The notes under the pieces: generated by a model
The model's database searches: none
Seen by the model: the letters and a program-made list of their open reading frames with translations, nothing else
What the model was told of the DNA's origin: nothing
Assembly (NCBI RefSeq): GCF_003073135.1
Contig: NZ_PGDQ01000028.1
Location: 1-43,766, forward strand
Direction of reading: 5' to 3'
From: Euzebya rosea
GTDB taxonomy: Bacteria > Actinomycetota > Nitriliruptoria > Euzebyales > Euzebyaceae
Length of the DNA: 43,766 bases
Translations under genes and position numbers: made by a program
In this document: piece after piece, positions 1,099-11,965 of the stretch
Numbering within the stretch: position 1 is the first letter of the stretch
Layout: the number at the start of each line of letters is the position of its first letter

Positions 1099-2145
1099 GT
1101 GGAGCGAGATGTCCGGGGCAGGCCATCGCTGCCCGACGACTTGCCGGCCGAGGCGCCGTTGGACGAACCGGGTGAGGGGAACCCCGACGACGTGGTCGAG
1201 GGTCCATCCGATTCGGAGACGCCACCCCAGTCGGACGGTCCGCCGGACGCGGTGCCAGGAGAGGCTGAGCCCAAGGATCCGGCGCCAGCGGGTGAGGGTG
1301 GGTCGTCCCTGCCGGAGGAGGCCCCGGACGACGAGGGCACCCCTACGGACGACGTCGTTGGTCCTGACACGGTCGCTGGTGAGGAGGAGGTCGCGCCGCC
1401 GCTGAATGGCGAGGACGGATCCGGTCCGGCCGTGGAGGGGGGAGCGGTCGGGGATCCTGCCCCGCTCCCCGCCGATCTGGGTGAGGTTGTCGACGCGATC
1501 GCGGACCCTGTTGAGGAGGCGGTCGGGGGCCCAACGGTGGTGATCGCCGACATCGTGGCGATGCCTGATGAGGAGCCAGAGGCCGAGGACGTCGTCCCGG
1601 AGGATGTTGAGGCAGTGGTGGACGACGTGGTCGGGCCCGTCATCGACGTGGTCGCGCCGCCAACGGACGGCGGGGCACCGCCAGCACCCCAGCCACCCGT
1701 TCCTGCTCCACCGCCTGCGGCCCCGGCGCCGACCGCACCCATCCCCACTGCCCCGACACCGCCACGGCCGAGTCCGGCGCCGCTGCCCGTGACGACGGCG
1801 CCCTCAGCCCCGCCAGCCGTGGCCGAGGCGGATCCCTGGCCAATCGAGTCCACGGCGACCCCGATCGACCCGGTTCCCGAGCTCGTCACGGTGCTGGACT
1901 CGTTGGATCCTTGTGCGCCAAGTTGCGAACATGTTCGAAATTCACGCGCCAAAGCGCTAGTCGGCGGGCCGAGCACCCGGGCGTGGATACCCTCGTTTAT
2001 TGCCCTACTGCTCAGGCCCCCTAGGCGAAGTCCAGTACGGAACCCAAGTTCATGCCGGTTACCCGCCCGTGCAACAGCAACGCATCCCGCTCGGTCAGGC
2101 GAGATACAGCATCACAGGCTATGCGCGCGGCAGACGCTAGTGTGA
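1099..2145 (+). CDS. acidic, proline-rich low-complexity protein, probably a damaged gene
   Basis: The frame opens at GTG 1099 and runs 348 codons. Residues 1 to about 190 are very rich in Asp, Glu, Pro, Val and Gly. Residues 190-250 are almost only Pro, Ala and Thr. Codons are GC-ended, so this strand is the coding one and the long Ser/Gly-rich reverse-strand ORF is its shadow. The last 70 residues change to Arg/Ser/Pro-rich sequence and overlap the oppositely oriented dGTPase gene by 125 bp, so the original C-terminus is probably lost. There is no signal peptide and no ribosome binding site; the N-terminus may be missing too. The composition resembles stalk or spacer parts of surface proteins. 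Function unknown. Confidence 0.4.
   Translation: MERDVRGRPSLPDDLPAEAPLDEPGEGNPDDVVEGPSDSETPPQSDGPPDAVPGEAEPKDPAPAGEGGSSLPEEAPDDEGTPTDDVVGPDTVAGEEEVAPPLNGEDGSGPAVEGGAVGDPAPLPADLGEVVDAIADPVEEAVGGPTVVIADIVAMPDEEPEAEDVVPEDVEAVVDDVVGPVIDVVAPPTDGGAPPAPQPPVPAPPPAAPAPTAPIPTAPTPPRPSPAPLPVTTAPSAPPAVAEADPWPIESTATPIDPVPELVTVLDSLDPCAPSCEHVRNSRAKALVGGPSTRAWIPSFIALLLRPPRRSPVRNPSSCRLPARATATHPARSGEIQHHRLCARQTLV
1926..1937. repeat. 12-bp perfect palindrome CGAACATGTTCG
   Basis: The palindrome sits where the acidic ORF loses coding character and about 85 bp beyond the stop of the dGTPase gene. It resembles a LexA half-site pair, but the gap between GAAC and GTTC is 2 rather than 4 bases, so I do not call it an SOS box. 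Confidence 0.3.
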
Positions 2146-3334
2146 TCTGCTGTTGTCCCAATAGTTCCTCTGCCTCCTCGCGGGCGCCCATAGGCAGAAG
2201 TGAGCGACGTTTGTCGTCCATGACGGCATCACGCAACTCCTTGTACAGAGTCGCCACTACTCGCCTCTGTCCAGCCTGTTGACTGCCAAGCCCTGGTCTG
2301 TCGATGACGTACCGCCACGTCAACTCCTTCAACACGTCGAGCTCAAACGTGGTCTCCGGTGGCTCGCTAAGGAGGCCGTCCTCCTCCAACTGAGCCGTCT
2401 CTACGTACTTGCCAACAAGAGTGCTCGTGAAGTAGCGGAGCGCGGCGCGAGCCAATCGACTGCCATCATAGGGACGGTCCGACCCGTAGTAGATGAGTGT
2501 CGCGTCGAACACGTCGTTGATCTGCTGTTCCGTCGCACCAGGGTGTGGCCGGCCGTTACGGACCCACTTATCTCGGATCCAGGTGACCAAGTCCTGACGC
2601 TCCTGACCGTCATCCGGATCACGGAGGCGGTGAAGAGGGACCAACCCCGCCCGTACGAAGTCCTCGATGTCATGGACCGCGTATGTGATGTCGTCGGCCA
2701 GATCCATCACTTGTGCCTCGACACTTCGCAGAGCTCCGTCCGGCCCTGGAATATGGTGCGTCGGATCCAGTGAGCGGGCGAACCGAAAGTCGGTTTCCTC
2801 GGAGGCATAGGCGCCCCACTTTCTGGAAGCCTTGGGGCTGTCAGGGTCGTGAAGCCACGGGTATTTGAGGACGCCATCGAGCACCAGGCGAGAGAGGTTC
2901 AGGCCCGCGTATTTACTGCTGTGCACGCTCAGCTTCGTGAGGATGCGGAAGCTCTGAGCGTTGCCCTCAAAGCCTTCTGCCCCATCCTCTGCTGCAAGGT
3001 GGTTCAGTACCTCTTCCCCCACATGTCCGAACGGTGGGTGCCCGAGGTCGTGTGCCAATGCAGCAGCCTCGACGGCCTCTGGGTTCGGACGTGGTAGGCC
3101 GTCGGCAGCCCCCGCCTGTAGGCGCTCCGCCAAGCGTCGGGCGACTTGACCGACCTTCAGCGAGTGGGTGAGGCGGTTGTGATAGACCTCGCCTTCATCC
3201 GCGGAGACGACCTGAGAAACCCCACCGAGTCTGCGAAACGCTGATGAGTACAGGATGCGGTCGCGGTCCCGTGCCGCTACTAGACGAGAGTCCACGTCTG
3301 GCGTGGGCCCATGCCTGCGCTCATGGACCGTCAA
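2021..3334 (-). CDS. dGTPase-like HD-domain dNTP triphosphohydrolase
   Basis: The 437-residue protein matches the deoxyguanosinetriphosphate triphosphohydrolase family, which cleaves dNTPs to deoxynucleoside and triphosphate. The HD metal site is complete: H57 in NRLTHSLKV, H95-D96 in AHDLGHPPFGH, and the aspartates of MDLADDITYAVHDIED around 211-222. The EGNAQSFRIL element at 123-132 is also typical. The N-terminal RDRILYSSAFRRLGGVSQV segment is the usual family opening. It overlaps the upstream 73-residue gene by 4 nt, so the two form an operon. Housekeeping dGTPases exist, but placement inside a mobile element next to a small partner gene is compatible with an anti-phage nucleotide-depletion role. 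That role is inference. Codon use is less biased than in the chromosomal part of the window. Confidence 0.9.
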   Translation of the reverse strand: MTVHERRHGPTPDVDSRLVAARDRDRILYSSAFRRLGGVSQVVSADEGEVYHNRLTHSLKVGQVARRLAERLQAGAADGLPRPNPEAVEAAALAHDLGHPPFGHVGEEVLNHLAAEDGAEGFEGNAQSFRILTKLSVHSSKYAGLNLSRLVLDGVLKYPWLHDPDSPKASRKWGAYASEETDFRFARSLDPTHHIPGPDGALRSVEAQVMDLADDITYAVHDIEDFVRAGLVPLHRLRDPDDGQERQDLVTWIRDKWVRNGRPHPGATEQQINDVFDATLIYYGSDRPYDGSRLARAALRYFTSTLVGKYVETAQLEEDGLLSEPPETTFELDVLKELTWRYVIDRPGLGSQQAGQRRVVATLYKELRDAVMDDKRRSLLPMGAREEAEELLGQQQITLASAARIACDAVSRLTERDALLLHGRVTGMNLGSVLDFA

Positions 3335-4563: not shown

Positions 4564-5793
4564 ATGGGACGGAATAGCGCCAGCGTCGATCAAACTGCCT
4601 CAGGAGGGGCGAGCCTGGCATGGCTTCTTCACCCGGTCGATACGGGGATCTTTCTGCGTGAGTACTGGGATCAGAGGCCCCTGTTCATTGATAGGGGCAA
4701 TTCGCGGTACCACGACTCGTTGCCAGGATTGGCAGAAGTGGATGGACTGCTAAGCACCGGCGTGTATAGCGCAGATCGGCTGGATGGTCGTCTGATGCAG
4801 ACCGGCCCGGACGGCGCTGTTTCGCGGCGCGCCTTTAGTATCACTGCTGAGGGGCGTCTGGATCTTCACGATGTCTACGAGGCCTACGACAGCGGCTACA
4901 CCGTCATCCTAAACCGAATCGAGTCGCGGTCCGCGGTCCTCGGCGCACTCTGCCGTAGGTTGGAGGAGGACCTTAACCACAGAGTGGGTGCGAACCTCTA
5001 TTTGACCCCCGCGGGTACCCAAGGTGCTAACCCCCACATAGACAGTCACGACGTCCTCTTGGTTCAGATTCACGGTTCTAAGACATGGAGGGTGTCTGCG
5101 GAGAGCATCAAGCGGAATCGAGCGGGCGCCGATCCTGGTCAGCGGATCGAACTCGGCGAACATGACGAGTGGACCCTCGTCGAAGGTGATGCCCTCTACA
5201 TCCCGCACGGCTTCGTCCATGCGGGAGTCACGCACGATACGTCATCGTTGCACATCACCTTTGGTTTCAACGTATTGACGTGGGCGGACCTGCTAACCGA
5301 GACGCTGGACCGGATCGCTTCTTCCAGCGAAGAACTGCAGCGACCGTTGCCGCTAGGTCACCTCGGTAAGCCGATAGATGAGAACACCGTCACCATGTTG
5401 CAGAACCAACTCATCAGCGCACTCACAAAGGAGGAGTTGCGTGCAGCGCAGCTCTCCCTCGGTTCAAAGTTGCTGGCTCGACACACGTCCTCAACAGGGC
5501 ACTTTCCTTCGCTGGACGCCGTCGCCGCGTTGGACTTGGAGACACGGGTTGGCCGGGGGTTTGAAGGTCCCCATCGCTTCAGAGTCGCGGAAGAGCGTCT
5601 GACTTGCGAGTTTCCTGGGAACTTCGTGACCGTCCCCGCTTCCCTAGCGCCAGCGCTCCGGTATGCTCTCTCACGACCGACCTTCCGGGTAGGTGAGCTG
5701 CCAGGCGGCCTCTCTGAACGGCAAAGGATCGACTTCATCGCCAGGCTGATTCGTGACGGCCTGCTGGCGGTATTCGAGAGCGAAAGGGGTTAG
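4564..5793 (+). CDS. JmjC/cupin-type Fe(II)/2-oxoglutarate oxygenase, probable peptide hydroxylase
   Basis: I start at ATG 4564 because AAGGAG lies 9 nt upstream; earlier TTG and ATG codons lack a site. The 409-residue product has the Cupin_4/JmjC layout of YcfD and MINA53-like hydroxylases: a double-stranded beta helix at about 90-260, then a helical C-terminal domain. The iron site is visible as H158-x-D160 in NPHIDSHD and a distal His, probably H219, in IPHGFVHAG. IHGSKTWRV after the first motif matches the usual strand carrying the 2-oxoglutarate contact. The gene precedes the small peptide gene by 4 nt. Family members hydroxylate Arg, His or other residues in proteins, so a role on the peptide is likely. 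GC is clearly lower than in the chromosomal genes. Confidence 0.85.
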   Translation: MGRNSASVDQTASGGASLAWLLHPVDTGIFLREYWDQRPLFIDRGNSRYHDSLPGLAEVDGLLSTGVYSADRLDGRLMQTGPDGAVSRRAFSITAEGRLDLHDVYEAYDSGYTVILNRIESRSAVLGALCRRLEEDLNHRVGANLYLTPAGTQGANPHIDSHDVLLVQIHGSKTWRVSAESIKRNRAGADPGQRIELGEHDEWTLVEGDALYIPHGFVHAGVTHDTSSLHITFGFNVLTWADLLTETLDRIASSSEELQRPLPLGHLGKPIDENTVTMLQNQLISALTKEELRAAQLSLGSKLLARHTSSTGHFPSLDAVAALDLETRVGRGFEGPHRFRVAEERLTCEFPGNFVTVPASLAPALRYALSRPTFRVGELPGGLSERQRIDFIARLIRDGLLAVFESERG

Positions 5794-5797
5794 TGAT

Positions 5798-5983
5798 ATG
5801 AGTATCGAAACCAAGACAGAGGCCGAATTCGACGACGCGATCGCAGCGATCGAATCGCGGGTTGACCGGGCGCAGTCCGATCGTGTTGACTTCCCCCGTG
5901 CTGGGCTGGAACCATCGTTCGTACTGCAGCGTTCCAAGAACGTTGAGGATTGGGACGGCGACAACAGCGTTACCAAGGTTTAG
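5798..5983 (+). CDS. candidate RiPP precursor peptide, 61 residues
   Basis: ATG 5798 lies 4 nt after the JmjC stop with an AAAGGGG site 8 nt upstream. The product is acidic. Residues 1-30 (TEAEFDDAIAAIESRVDRAQ) should form a helix, like a leader peptide bound by modifying enzymes. From P40 the sequence changes to a less structured tail, SFVLQRSKNVEDWDGDN and then SVTKV, with Trp52, four Asp/Asn between 51 and 56, and no Cys. That excludes lanthionine chemistry and leaves Asp, Asn, Trp, Phe, Val, Arg or Lys as hydroxylation targets. There is no obvious GG or other protease site. It sits between two oxygenase genes on the same strand. Precursor assignment is inferred from size, layout and neighbours. 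Confidence 0.7.
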   Translation: MSIETKTEAEFDDAIAAIESRVDRAQSDRVDFPRAGLEPSFVLQRSKNVEDWDGDNSVTKV

Positions 5984-5998
5984 GCGGAAGTGCCCAAC

Positions 5999-7009
5999 AT
6001 GCCCTGGTCATTCCGGCCGGAACATGGCAGGGCCGTGCAACTGAGAAGCGGACTGGAACAGGAGTTGTACTCCAGTTTCATCAACCTCCTGGAGCGAGTT
6101 GAACTAGCTTTCCAGTTGCCGAGACATTCGTTGGCGCAGGTGGCTCCACTATCTTGTCGCGATTCTGCCATCCGACCGAGCTTATTTACGAGCCATTGGA
6201 TAATTGGAACCGCAGTCGAGTGTAATAGAACTGATGATTTGCTCCCAGCACTAAGAGAACTTCGGGGCGAGTCTTGCGTACCACTCGAGTTGGTGGTTTC
6301 AACGCGCTCAGACGACATGATTGATGCTGCAGCCCAAGAGTACATCGCGAGCGATGAGGGTCAGCGCAAGGCGCACTACGACAGCACTGGACTCCAACCT
6401 CTACCTGTGCATAGAGGCCTGACTGATTCCAACTTGACTGCTCTGCCACGGTTGGAGATCGATAACCTACGGGAACGGACTGCGGAGGCTCTCCACATCC
6501 TATCAGGTCTAGACCCTTCCCTGGTAGATGAAGTCCATCAGTACGTTCGACAGATCCGCTTCATCGGCAGTGACCGAATCGGTGGAATGAGCAGCGTCCG
6601 ATTCTTCGGCGTCGTTTATCTGCGTAGACCCAGTGCGATGCCGGGGACCTTCGAGGAACTCGTGGAGATCGTCAACGGCATCGTTCACGAGACTTCTCAT
6701 CTACATCTGCACGCTTTGATGGCGGCTGATCCACTCGTCCTCAACGTCAGCGACCGCTTCCCGTCGCCGCTAAGGAGAGATCACCGCCCGATGCTGGGCA
6801 TCTTCCACGCGACATTTGTGCTGGCGAGGCTGATGCATATTCTTGGCCTTTGGGTGGCGGCAGAACCAAACCGAGAAGACTTGGTTGCGGCTAGGTTGGA
6901 TGCCGAAACACGGCTGAGGAACGGGTTGACGACCGTCAGCGAGAACGGGGTCCTAACGCCACGGGGCGAGGAGGTCTTAGCAAGCATGGAGCAAGCGCTC
7001 CTTGCCTAG
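5999..7009 (+). CDS. stand-alone HExxH-domain peptide-modification protein
   Basis: I prefer ATG 5999 (AGGCGG 11 nt upstream) to GTG 5990, giving 336 residues. The key motif is H230-E-T-S-H234 in GIVHETSHLHLH, followed by RDHRPMLGIFHATFVLARL, where H270 may be the third ligand. This matches the HEXXH domain (TIGR04267-type) found alone or fused to radical SAM enzymes of the FxsB kind in peptide-modification loci. In fused radical SAM/HExxH enzymes this domain is a 2-oxoglutarate-dependent beta-hydroxylase rather than a peptidase. The N-terminal 150 residues match nothing I know; RSDDMIDAAAQEYIASDEG and a QPLPV segment recall the family. Third gene of the operon, 15 nt after the peptide; markedly AT-richer than the surroundings. 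Confidence 0.8.
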   Translation: MPWSFRPEHGRAVQLRSGLEQELYSSFINLLERVELAFQLPRHSLAQVAPLSCRDSAIRPSLFTSHWIIGTAVECNRTDDLLPALRELRGESCVPLELVVSTRSDDMIDAAAQEYIASDEGQRKAHYDSTGLQPLPVHRGLTDSNLTALPRLEIDNLRERTAEALHILSGLDPSLVDEVHQYVRQIRFIGSDRIGGMSSVRFFGVVYLRRPSAMPGTFEELVEIVNGIVHETSHLHLHALMAADPLVLNVSDRFPSPLRRDHRPMLGIFHATFVLARLMHILGLWVAAEPNREDLVAARLDAETRLRNGLTTVSENGVLTPRGEEVLASMEQALLA

Positions 7010-7343: not shown

Positions 7344-9224
7344 CTAGCTAGCGAGAAGGAAAGTATGTGCCCGCGAGCGCGAGATTCTGGGATCGGTCTC
7401 GCGCCAGTGCCGCCGCGATGTCGATGACCCTGTCCGTTGACCGAGCCCCCGGGTGGTTGGCGTCTGGATCATATGGCTCAGCGTGTGCTGTCCGATGCAC
7501 GCGAACTGCTCGGTGATGCCGGGAGAGCATGACGTAGACGAACTGGCGGTAGGCCGTGTCGTCGACGAGCACGTGGGAGGTGTCGACGGTCCTGCCCTGG
7601 GCCTTTGGACGGTCGTGGCGTAGGCGTGGGCAAGGCCCCCGTTCTCCATGTAGTCGACCGGTAGCACGATGGCCTGGCCGTGGGCGTCGGTGGCGTGCAC
7701 CTCGTCCGGGGTGATGGCGTCGATGGTGGCGATGGTGCCGTTGAGTACCCCAAGCAGGCGGTTGTTGCGCAGGCACAGGATCTGGTCGCCGACGCGGTAC
7801 CCGGTGCCGCCGATGATCGTTTCTGGGCCGTACAGCGCTCCGGCCTCGTCCAGTCGTTCACGGGCGTGGGCGTTGAGGCGGTCGACTTGGTCTTGGCGGC
7901 CGGCGAGCATGGTTGTGGATAGGCCGACCCTGCGGTCATTCCACCAGCCTTGGACGACTGCGGCGACGGCCTGATCCGACGTGTCGTGGACGGTGTACCG
8001 CTCTGGCTGGGTGAAGTGGGCGAGGGCGACCGCGTCGTTGTGGTCGCGGATGGCGTTGACGGCGGCTCGTTCGGCGGGGTCCTGCTGCCGCCGGTTCGTG
8101 ACGAGCTCCACGGTGTGGGAGTGGCGAGTGAGTGCGCGGAAAAAGCCGCCGGCGTCGATTTCGGGGAGCTGATGGTGGTCGCCGACCAGGATCAGGCGGG
8201 CGCCGACGGCGGCGGTGTGATCGATGAGGCGGGCGAGCTTGCGGGTTCCGATCATGGCGGCTTCGTCGATGACGATGACGTCGTTGTGCCGCAGAGGGTT
8301 GGTGTCAAGCTCGGCGAGGAGCCCGTCGACCGAGGCTGCGGCCATCCCCGTTTCCTCACCCAACTGCTGGGCCGTTCGTGCGGCCAAGGCGGCTCCCATG
8401 ACAGTGCACCCTGCGGCTCGCCAGAGCGGGACTGCGGCGGCGAGGGCGGTGGTCTTGCCGGCGCCGGCGCGACCGACCACGACCTGCACACCCTCAGTGC
8501 CCGTGGTGATCTGGCGCACCATCCGGGCCTGTTCCTCAGCGAGGAACTGCTGGGCTGTGAGGACGCGATCGACGTGGGTGGGCTCGCAGCTCACCGTGGC
8601 CACGGCGGTCGACGCCTGCTCCAGGGCCCGTCGTTCGGTCTCCAGCAGATCGTGGGTCGAGTAGACGGTCTCGGTGCTCCCTGCCTCTCGGTGAGGACGG
8701 AGACCGGCCGGGGCGCCCGCCACGGTGAGGTCGGATCGGACCTCCAACTGTCGGGCCCGTCGGCGGGCCCTCCAGGTCAGCACGCCGACGGGGTCGCGGA
8801 CTCCGTCCAAGGACTCGGCCAGCAGCTCGTTGGCGAGCTCGTCGGGGCGCGTCTCCGTGTTGGTGAGGATGCGCGACACGATGCCCCGCAGGGGCTGGCT
8901 CTCGTCGGCCGGGACTCCGGCCGCTGCCGCCAGGCGGGCCAGGGCCCGGTCGACGTCGGAGGAGACCGGGGAGGTGGGGGCGGGTTGGGAGAGCATGACG
9001 GCGACCCCCGCTTCGCTGTCGAGCGTTGCGTCGGTGAGACGCTCCAGCGTCTCAAGCGGGGCGCCTCGGGGCAGCCGGTCGCACCAGGCGCGGACGACGT
9101 CACGGCGGCGGAAGGTCGAGGTGCGTTCCGTCAATCCGTTGGGACCGCCCAGCGCCAGCATGACTTGGTCGGCGTCGATGTCATCGAGCTCCCGGCGATG
9201 GTCTTGGAACAGCAGCCGCCCCAC
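7344..9224 (-). pseudogene. helicase half of a broken MobF-type relaxase/helicase
   Basis: This 626-codon frame holds the RecD/TraI-like superfamily 1 helicase part: Walker A GRAGAGKTT, Walker B VIVIDEAAM, then ILVGDHHQLPEIDAGG and RQQDPAE. Near its end the text reads AHAYATTV, then QRPRAG, where the family has HKAQG. The frame +1 reads KAQGRTVDTSHVLVDD and ends AGTYFPSR at 7348, so one base was lost around 7604-7608 and the natural C-terminus is in the other frame. The N-terminal side also starts out of frame with the relaxase part, because of the 8-bp duplication at 9307-9322. The original product, about 920 residues, would nick and unwind DNA for conjugative transfer. It is now almost certainly non-functional unless the frameshifts are sequencing errors. 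Confidence 0.85.
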
Positions 9225-9274: not shown

Positions 9275-10117
9275 TCAGCGTCGCGGCGCTGACGCCGTAC
9301 TCCTTGCGTTGCCGCGTTGCCGCGTGGCCAGGGTGGCGACCTGGGCGGCCTTCGCGGAGGAGTGCCCGGTCGCGTCGAGTGCGGCGAGGATGTCGGCGCG
9401 ACGGCGGGAGAAGTGCTCAATGACCTCTCGCGGAACGCCCTGTAGGTCGGCGGCGCCGTTGACCACTGGCTGCCATGCCACCCCGAGGGCGGACGTGAGC
9501 TCGTGGCGGAGCACCGCTTGGTAGACGAAGCCGGCGGTCTTGGAGTGGGTGTAGAGCAGCCGGCCGTTGAGGGTGCGCCAGCGGTCGTCGTCGGGGGTGT
9601 GGGCGAGGTTGGCGACCAGCACGTGGCTGTGCAGCAGCGGGTCGCCGGCGCGGGAGGTGCGGTGGCGGAACACCGCGGCGACGGCGCCGTCGGCCTCGAC
9701 GTGATCGACCCCGTTGGTGCCGCGGCGGGTGCCGATCGCGTGTCGCTCGAGGAACTCCAACGCGGTGGCGACCGCCCGGTCGTGACACGCCCGCACCTCC
9801 TCGGCCACGTCGGGCGTGCTCAGCGCCCACAGCAGCGACACCGACTTGGGGGCTCGGAAGGTCAGGTCGAAGCCTGGGAGCCGCGGCCCCCCGAACCCGC
9901 GGAGGAGCTTGTCGCCAGTTCGGGGATGGACGCCGGCCAGGACGGCCTCCAGGTCCGACGCGGTGACCCGACCCGACACGCCGAGCCGCGACGCGGCGTT
10001 GCCCGTCCACCAGCCGGGCGCCTCGCCCGCGCCGAGGTAGTAGTCCTCGACCCCGGAGGCGACGACCTCGAGGTAGTACTCCCCGCCGTTGACGGCGAGC
10101 TTGCCGATGTTCAGCAC
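9275..10117 (-). pseudogene. TrwC-type relaxase half of the broken relaxase/helicase
   Basis: The 280-codon frame begins MLNIGKLAVNGGEYYLEVV and carries the MobF relaxase domain: N-terminal tyrosines (YYLEVV, DYYLG) for strand cleavage, the FDLTFRAPKSVSLLWAL segment, and the metal-binding histidines around LLHSHVLVAN and the nearby helix. It breaks after VATLATRQR. There the sequence carries two copies of an 8-bp unit; removing one restores KEYGVSAATLNDRW and continuous reading into the helicase half. The winged-helix gene lies 40 nt upstream on the same strand, a layout I associate with actinobacterial integrative elements. The loss of the gene suggests the element can no longer mobilise itself. 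Confidence 0.85.
9307..9322. repeat. 8-bp tandem duplication that frameshifts the relaxase
   Basis: CGTTGCCG occurs twice in tandem (9307-9314 and 9315-9322). Deleting one unit joins the relaxase and helicase frames into the expected family sequence, so this is most simply a replication-slippage duplication in a formerly intact gene. Confidence 0.85.
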
Positions 10118-11800: not shown

Positions 11801-11845
11801 CTTCCCAAGCTGAATACGGGGGTTCGATTCCCCTCACCCGCTCCA
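11801..11845 (+). other. attachment site: 3' half of a tRNA-Gly(CCC) gene
   Basis: The 45 bases read as a tRNA from the anticodon loop onward: CTTCCCAAG (anticodon CCC), the 3' anticodon stem GCTGA, a T-arm with TTCGATT, and an acceptor strand CACCCGC followed by TCCA. The 5' side does not continue the tRNA: the anticodon stem would need TCAGC and has unrelated bases. This is what remains at the far end of an element that integrated into the 3' end of a tRNA-Gly gene and kept an identity segment. The intact tRNA should be at the other border, left of this window. Confidence 0.8.
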
Positions 11846-11965
11846 TCCATCCATCCATGCAGCTGGCCCCTCGGTGGAGGCCGTCGACCCACGTGACTGC
11901 GAGGCGGTGGCAGCGGTTCCCCTGGCCACGAGGTGCCCCGGGCCCGGTCAGGGCAGGATGAGCGC

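Follow-up and report, generated by a model that had tools for sequence, protein, structure and literature searches.

A peptide gene and two oxygenase genes at 4564–7009 of the window (the whole stretch of 43,766 nucleotides from Euzebya rosea that was analysed) probably form a minimal operon for a RiPP (a ribosomally synthesised and post-translationally modified peptide), in which the peptide would consist of a leader half and a tail hydroxylated by both oxygenases. The arrangement is that by which RiPP clusters are recognised, i.e., a short precursor gene beside genes for modifying enzymes, and the precursor role of the 61-aa peptide is well supported. Besides the JmjC and aKG-HExxH oxygenases, no modifying enzyme was visible at the operon, and neither a protease nor a transporter could be identified next to it. 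RiPP operons of the aKG-HExxH type are already known; this is an unusually small version, and the JmjC partner in so small a set is new; outside the biphenomycin clusters, it adds a partner of this type to an HExxH enzyme. The oxygenase fold of the aKG-HExxH enzymes has been recognised only recently, and few of its members are characterised. One peptide with two oxygenases offers a small system in which to study how targets are chosen, how the leader is recognised and in which order the enzymes act.

The peptide gene and the flanking oxygenase genes

The ORF was found exactly where the original prediction had placed it, at 5798–5983 on the forward strand (ATG to TAG), and encodes the 61-aa sequence MSIETKTEAEFDDAIAAIESRVDRAQSDRVDFPRAGLEPSFVLQRSKNVEDWDGDNSVTKV. 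The peptide contains neither Cys nor His and has a net charge of -6. Its tail, which ends in SKNVEDWDGDNSVTKV, carries the Trp, three Asp and two Asn that had been described (Trp52, Asp51/53/55 and Asn48/56), and permuted peptides rarely had so dense a cluster of Asp, Asn and Trp (p = 0.017), a clustering moderately unusual for the composition. The proline from which the tail had been said to begin is residue 39, rather than 40. Since the peptide lacks Cys, lanthionine and sactionine chemistry was rejected, as had been argued beforehand; a lanthipeptide or sactipeptide precursor was ruled out because the core Cys is absent.

Position and composition argue strongly that 5798–5983 is a gene. The ORF begins 4 bp after the stop of the JmjC gene and ends 6 bp before the HExxH gene, and its codon usage fits that of both flanking enzyme genes (0.137 per codon; the two remaining forward frames scored -0.3), a score matched by 0 of 2000 shuffles. 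One antisense frame scored equal to the coding frame, and a shuffled stretch of 183 nt was open in 8% of cases; therefore, the length of the ORF proves nothing by itself, and the argument for a gene is made from packing and context. Scans for promoters and terminators produced nothing above shuffles.

The downstream gene (5990–7009, forward strand; start at GTG 5990 or ATG 5999) encodes a 339-aa protein of the aKG-HExxH-type peptide beta-hydroxylase family (TIGR04267; 76.2 bits against a curated cut-off of 40). Its HETSH motif is encoded at 6686–6700 on the forward strand, and H233, E234, H237, R262, R266 and H273 were invariant in 44 aligned rows of relatives; H273 (6806–6808, forward strand) is the candidate third ligand. 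The profile and the conserved residues aligned to ChlH (PDB 8s5f), which the predicted model also matched (Foldseek E = 3e-10, TM 0.54–0.72). By family, and with its iron ligands kept, this enzyme should be a 2-oxoglutarate-dependent peptide beta-hydroxylase.

The upstream gene (4564–5793, forward strand; ATG at 4564, preceded by AAGGAG) encodes a 409-aa JmjC_2 oxygenase (PF08007; 93 bits, cut-off 22, E = 1e-26). Its iron ligands H158xD160 (5035–5043, forward strand) and H219 (5218–5220, forward strand) form an HxD...H triad that is kept in comparison with MINA and NO66; these two and YcfD were the best solved relatives. Combined with six relatives in a profile, the protein could be aligned to NO66 along almost its whole length, the C-terminal region (about 5596–5790, forward strand) included. 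RRE-like domains, which bind leaders, are reported as fusions to some PF08007 JmjC domains, bacterial relatives occurring in RiPP-like contexts (PMC12710340); the C-terminus of the JmjC enzyme may bind the peptide leader.

AlphaFold2 models were made of the peptide alone and of the peptide in frame with the HExxH enzyme, the stop codon being read through for modelling only. Both predicted an acidic leader helix at residues 8–27 (5819–5878, forward strand; pLDDT about 85). The acidic N-terminal helix of the original prediction was thereby recovered, but not its amphipathicity, as the helical moment was no higher than in shuffles (p = 0.5). Residues 40–61 (5915–5980, forward strand), the putative core with VEDWDGDN at 5942–5965, were disordered in both models. 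The tail of the fused model was undocked, with pLDDT under 50, and confidence in the helix was nearly equal with and without the enzyme; therefore, no docking of the peptide on the HExxH enzyme is claimed. In neither model was an active site occupied by the tail.

Relatives of the HExxH enzyme and their neighbourhoods

An alignment scan of genome contigs identified 72 loci (numbered with the prefix L) with relatives of the HExxH enzyme, and a profile search also found relatives; single-sequence scans of genome contigs and of the phylum gave no matches. In the phylogenetic tree the window enzyme belongs to a clade of 18 rows (support 99/97), where it has a long branch and its nearest neighbours are sequences from Nocardia, Pseudarthrobacter and Streptomyces. 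A short ORF led by a SD sequence stood just upstream of the HExxH relative in 31 of 70 loci, compared with 54 of 282 other genes from the same loci (Fisher p = 3e-5). At least one candidate contained Cys in 12 of the 31, some of those candidates looking spurious; examples of the upstream peptides are MEKTQEVIDEKIEVLEFEPVEESYLAITSPAVQIS (L061) and MENNEIQAEQVEAVEQAEITFGEIPESYLSHSSQLMQAD (L070). The recurrence of these ORFs, the structure of the operon and the peptide hydroxylases of the HExxH and JmjC types that have been characterised (PMC12707348, PMC12636437, PMC13060819) all support the earlier proposal that the peptide is a precursor for the flanking 2-oxoglutarate oxygenases.

Direct searches with the peptide returned nothing credible in its own genome and 100 relatives, plasmids and viral contigs. 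The peptides of the HExxH-relative loci shared neither leader nor tail with the window peptide above chance, and when the window ORFs were ranked by a profile built from the peptides of the nearest relatives, the window peptide came at about rank 20 of 303. Because that profile gave no match, a visual likeness between the relatives' peptides and the window peptide (xVxF..., VQIS) was dropped; the relatives' peptides appear too different for homology to be claimed.

The neighbours of the relatives' HExxH genes included MFS transporters and, according to Pfam, YcaO-like proteins adjoining the gene in L061, L064, L071 and L075. Some loci have, near the HExxH gene, a further 2-oxoglutarate oxygenase whose fold is different: L061 and L063 encode PhyH, L093 and L109 two Cupin_8/JmjC_2 proteins. 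Most HExxH relatives were without a JmjC neighbour, and HMM searches of the HExxH loci detected no JmjC other than the remote Cupin_8/JmjC_2 proteins of L093 and L109. Together with BipG and BipH of the biphenomycin pathway, these pairs show that tailoring by two oxygenases recurs, and the window holds the smallest of the examples named. The relatives' loci contain unexplored combinations of HExxH with PhyH, with YcaO, and with ThiF and two JmjC/cupin proteins.

Several of these neighbourhoods were observed to have features of their own. L093 (2237–8570, Pantoea) and L109 (2202–8570, Salmonella arizonae) have a common operon comprising a 49-aa peptide ending in Cys, two Cupin_8/JmjC_2 proteins, ThiF, HExxH and a further downstream gene; the candidate precursor is nearly identical in both (MNDFESKEFRSYVSPTE..DFDVEFKIENVQLAE.ELD.ELLLATHRC), and the operon is apparently an undescribed RiPP-like cluster. 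Another RiPP-like arrangement, in which HExxH and a YcaO-like protein come after a short peptide free of Cys, was seen in L061 (3893–8671), L070 (5325–8544), L064 (5343–7492) and L075 (5238–7311). The YcaO match in Pfam was below cut-off in L061, missing in L070 and above cut-off in L064 and L075, while L061 also has PhyH and MFS genes beside this set. In the SPbeta-like Bacillus phage SPbetaL1 (L056, 5513–6609) a 66-aa acidic ORF lies directly 5' of the HExxH protein. The proteobacterial small ORFs upstream of HExxH in L113 and L121–L129 share LDxSKLLG...KPxG motifs and represent a separate family of candidate precursors.

Proposed modification, alternative readings and known systems

A division of the peptide into leader and core, a set of target residues and an order of enzyme action can be proposed. 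The N-terminal half would act as leader, while the flexible tail would be hydroxylated by both enzymes, each of them modifying side chains there with the help of Fe(II), O2 and 2-oxoglutarate. Among characterised HExxH enzymes, Asp, His, Gln, Phe-type and Pro residues all serve as targets, and PflC and PosC also cleave the backbone (PMC12636437, PMC13060819). Given this range, the Asp and Asn residues of NVEDWDGDN would be the likeliest single choice of target for the HExxH enzyme, rather than an established one; judged from its sequence, the DWDGDN tail is a plausible hydroxylation target. For the JmjC enzyme the likelier target would be Asn or a basic residue (R45, K47, N48 or K60), by analogy with BipG, which acts on Orn. 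The protease and the exporter would need to come from elsewhere in the genome. More speculatively, the operon could stand for a RiPP class with just two 2-oxoglutarate oxygenases of unrelated fold as its modifiers, acting sequentially on one Asp/Asn-rich tail (e.g., beta-hydroxylation of a residue that is then oxidised further or crosslinked) and yielding a poly-hydroxylated, possibly metal-binding peptide; this is an unlikely reading.

The part played by the JmjC enzyme could be read otherwise. JmjC_2 proteins at 31–35% identity were widespread single genes in the class and phylum and did not obviously belong to RiPP loci, which leaves room for the JmjC partner to act elsewhere; no relative above 35% identity emerged when viral contigs and the phylum were scanned, and the closest actinobacterial relative (L133) adjoins uvrC, with no precursor there. 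These distributions, the closeness of MINA, NO66 and YcfD, and the HExxH relatives that mostly stand without a JmjC neighbour would suit an enzyme of the ribosomal-oxygenase-like NO66/MINA/YcfD type with another protein as its target, merely co-located with a peptide on which only HExxH acts. This has a small but real likelihood, for the JmjC gene opens the packed operon and shares its composition, it is absent from same-genus genomes and encodes the only above-cut-off JmjC_2 protein in its own, and JmjC and HExxH are paired in the biphenomycin clusters and in L093 and L109.

It is rather improbable that the HExxH enzyme cleaves the backbone oxidatively, through alpha-hydroxylation at a small tail residue such as Gly54, to leave a C-terminal amide (...VEDWD-NH2), as PflC and PosC do at the Ala of ARMD. 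Although PosC cuts at Ala and partly at Gly (PMC12636437), Gly54 sits between two Asp and no protease gene is near, the tail has no ARMD-like motif, PflC and PosC belong to another cluster of the family, and the other characterised members only hydroxylate. That the peptide is a small partner or regulatory protein (an oxygenase accessory factor), or that the ORF is untranslated, was considered very improbable; the exact packing between two genes, the forward-frame codon usage and the small ORF that recurs next to relatives' HExxH genes outweigh the equal antisense frame, the ordinariness of an open frame of such length and the failure to find a homologue.

The proposed hydroxylation of the tail by both enzymes is comparable with the biphenomycin clusters (bip/bpm), where one JmjC and one aKG-HExxH oxygenase accompany a RiPP precursor; BipG hydroxylates Orn (gamma) in this precursor and BipH hydroxylates after BipG (PMC12707348, PMC12257519). 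A tailoring pair of JmjC and HExxH is proven only in this many-enzyme pathway, which also has an MNIO with its partner, a B12 radical SAM, an arginase, a transporter and a TldD protease, none of them found beside the window operon. The bip precursor core is FHAFRF, which the window peptide lacks, and the operon is therefore not assigned to the biphenomycin type. PflC and PosC are, like the window enzyme, stand-alone aKG-HExxH enzymes; as is proposed for the window, they modify a precursor in its C-terminal part, and their clusters likewise have no protease gene, but pfl and pos differ in their MNIO-nitroreductase fusion partner, their Gln hydroxylation and cleavage at ARMD and their nitrile-hydratase-type leader (PMC12636437). 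PesO, from the pes cluster of the nitrilobacillins, is an aKG-HExxH enzyme that hydroxylates a residue near a C-terminal Asp-Asn; however, PesO acts on Pro, hydroxylation of the Asp is the work of an MNIO, the C terminus is turned into a nitrile and there is no JmjC (PMC13060819). The ChlH domain (PDB 8s5f) has the same fold and, by alignment, the same HExxH...H arrangement as the window enzyme, but is fused to a radical SAM and acts on cyclophane peptides (Asp, His). SmaO and SmaX are described as a pair of oxygenases with Asp in a single precursor as their target, which is converted to beta-hydroxy-Asp and then to aminomalonate; they belong to a graspetide cluster with a graspetide synthetase (PMC13097080).

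The element that carries the operon

All three genes were alike in being atypical for the contig, the G+C content of the operon being 56–59% against about 70%. Homology to a same-genus element starts at about position 7517 of the window, downstream of the operon, which is therefore cargo of the element. The element encodes a TrwC relaxase and a TraA-like helicase, which lie in two frames (9275–10117 and 7344–9224, reverse strand). About 50 bp at 11801–11853 matched tRNA-Gly(CCC) genes elsewhere, and this region is therefore a probable attachment site, derived from the 3' part of such a gene. The segment 7344–11853 points to an integrated conjugative element, perhaps a decaying one, that carries the operon.

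The HExxH protein had no relative in its own genome beyond itself and none in 100 related genomes, while same-genus genomes gave no match to either the JmjC or the HExxH protein. Apart from the one JmjC_2 protein above cut-off, the genome contained one weak match below it. Also inside the element, a dGTP triphosphohydrolase-like HD protein is encoded at 2021–3334 on the reverse strand (TIGR01353, 240 bits) and scores on the anti-phage dGTPase model as well. Three further contigs of this genome (C27, C11 and C5) carry copies of positions 1–111 of the window at 99–100% identity, and the contig probably ends in a repeat here.
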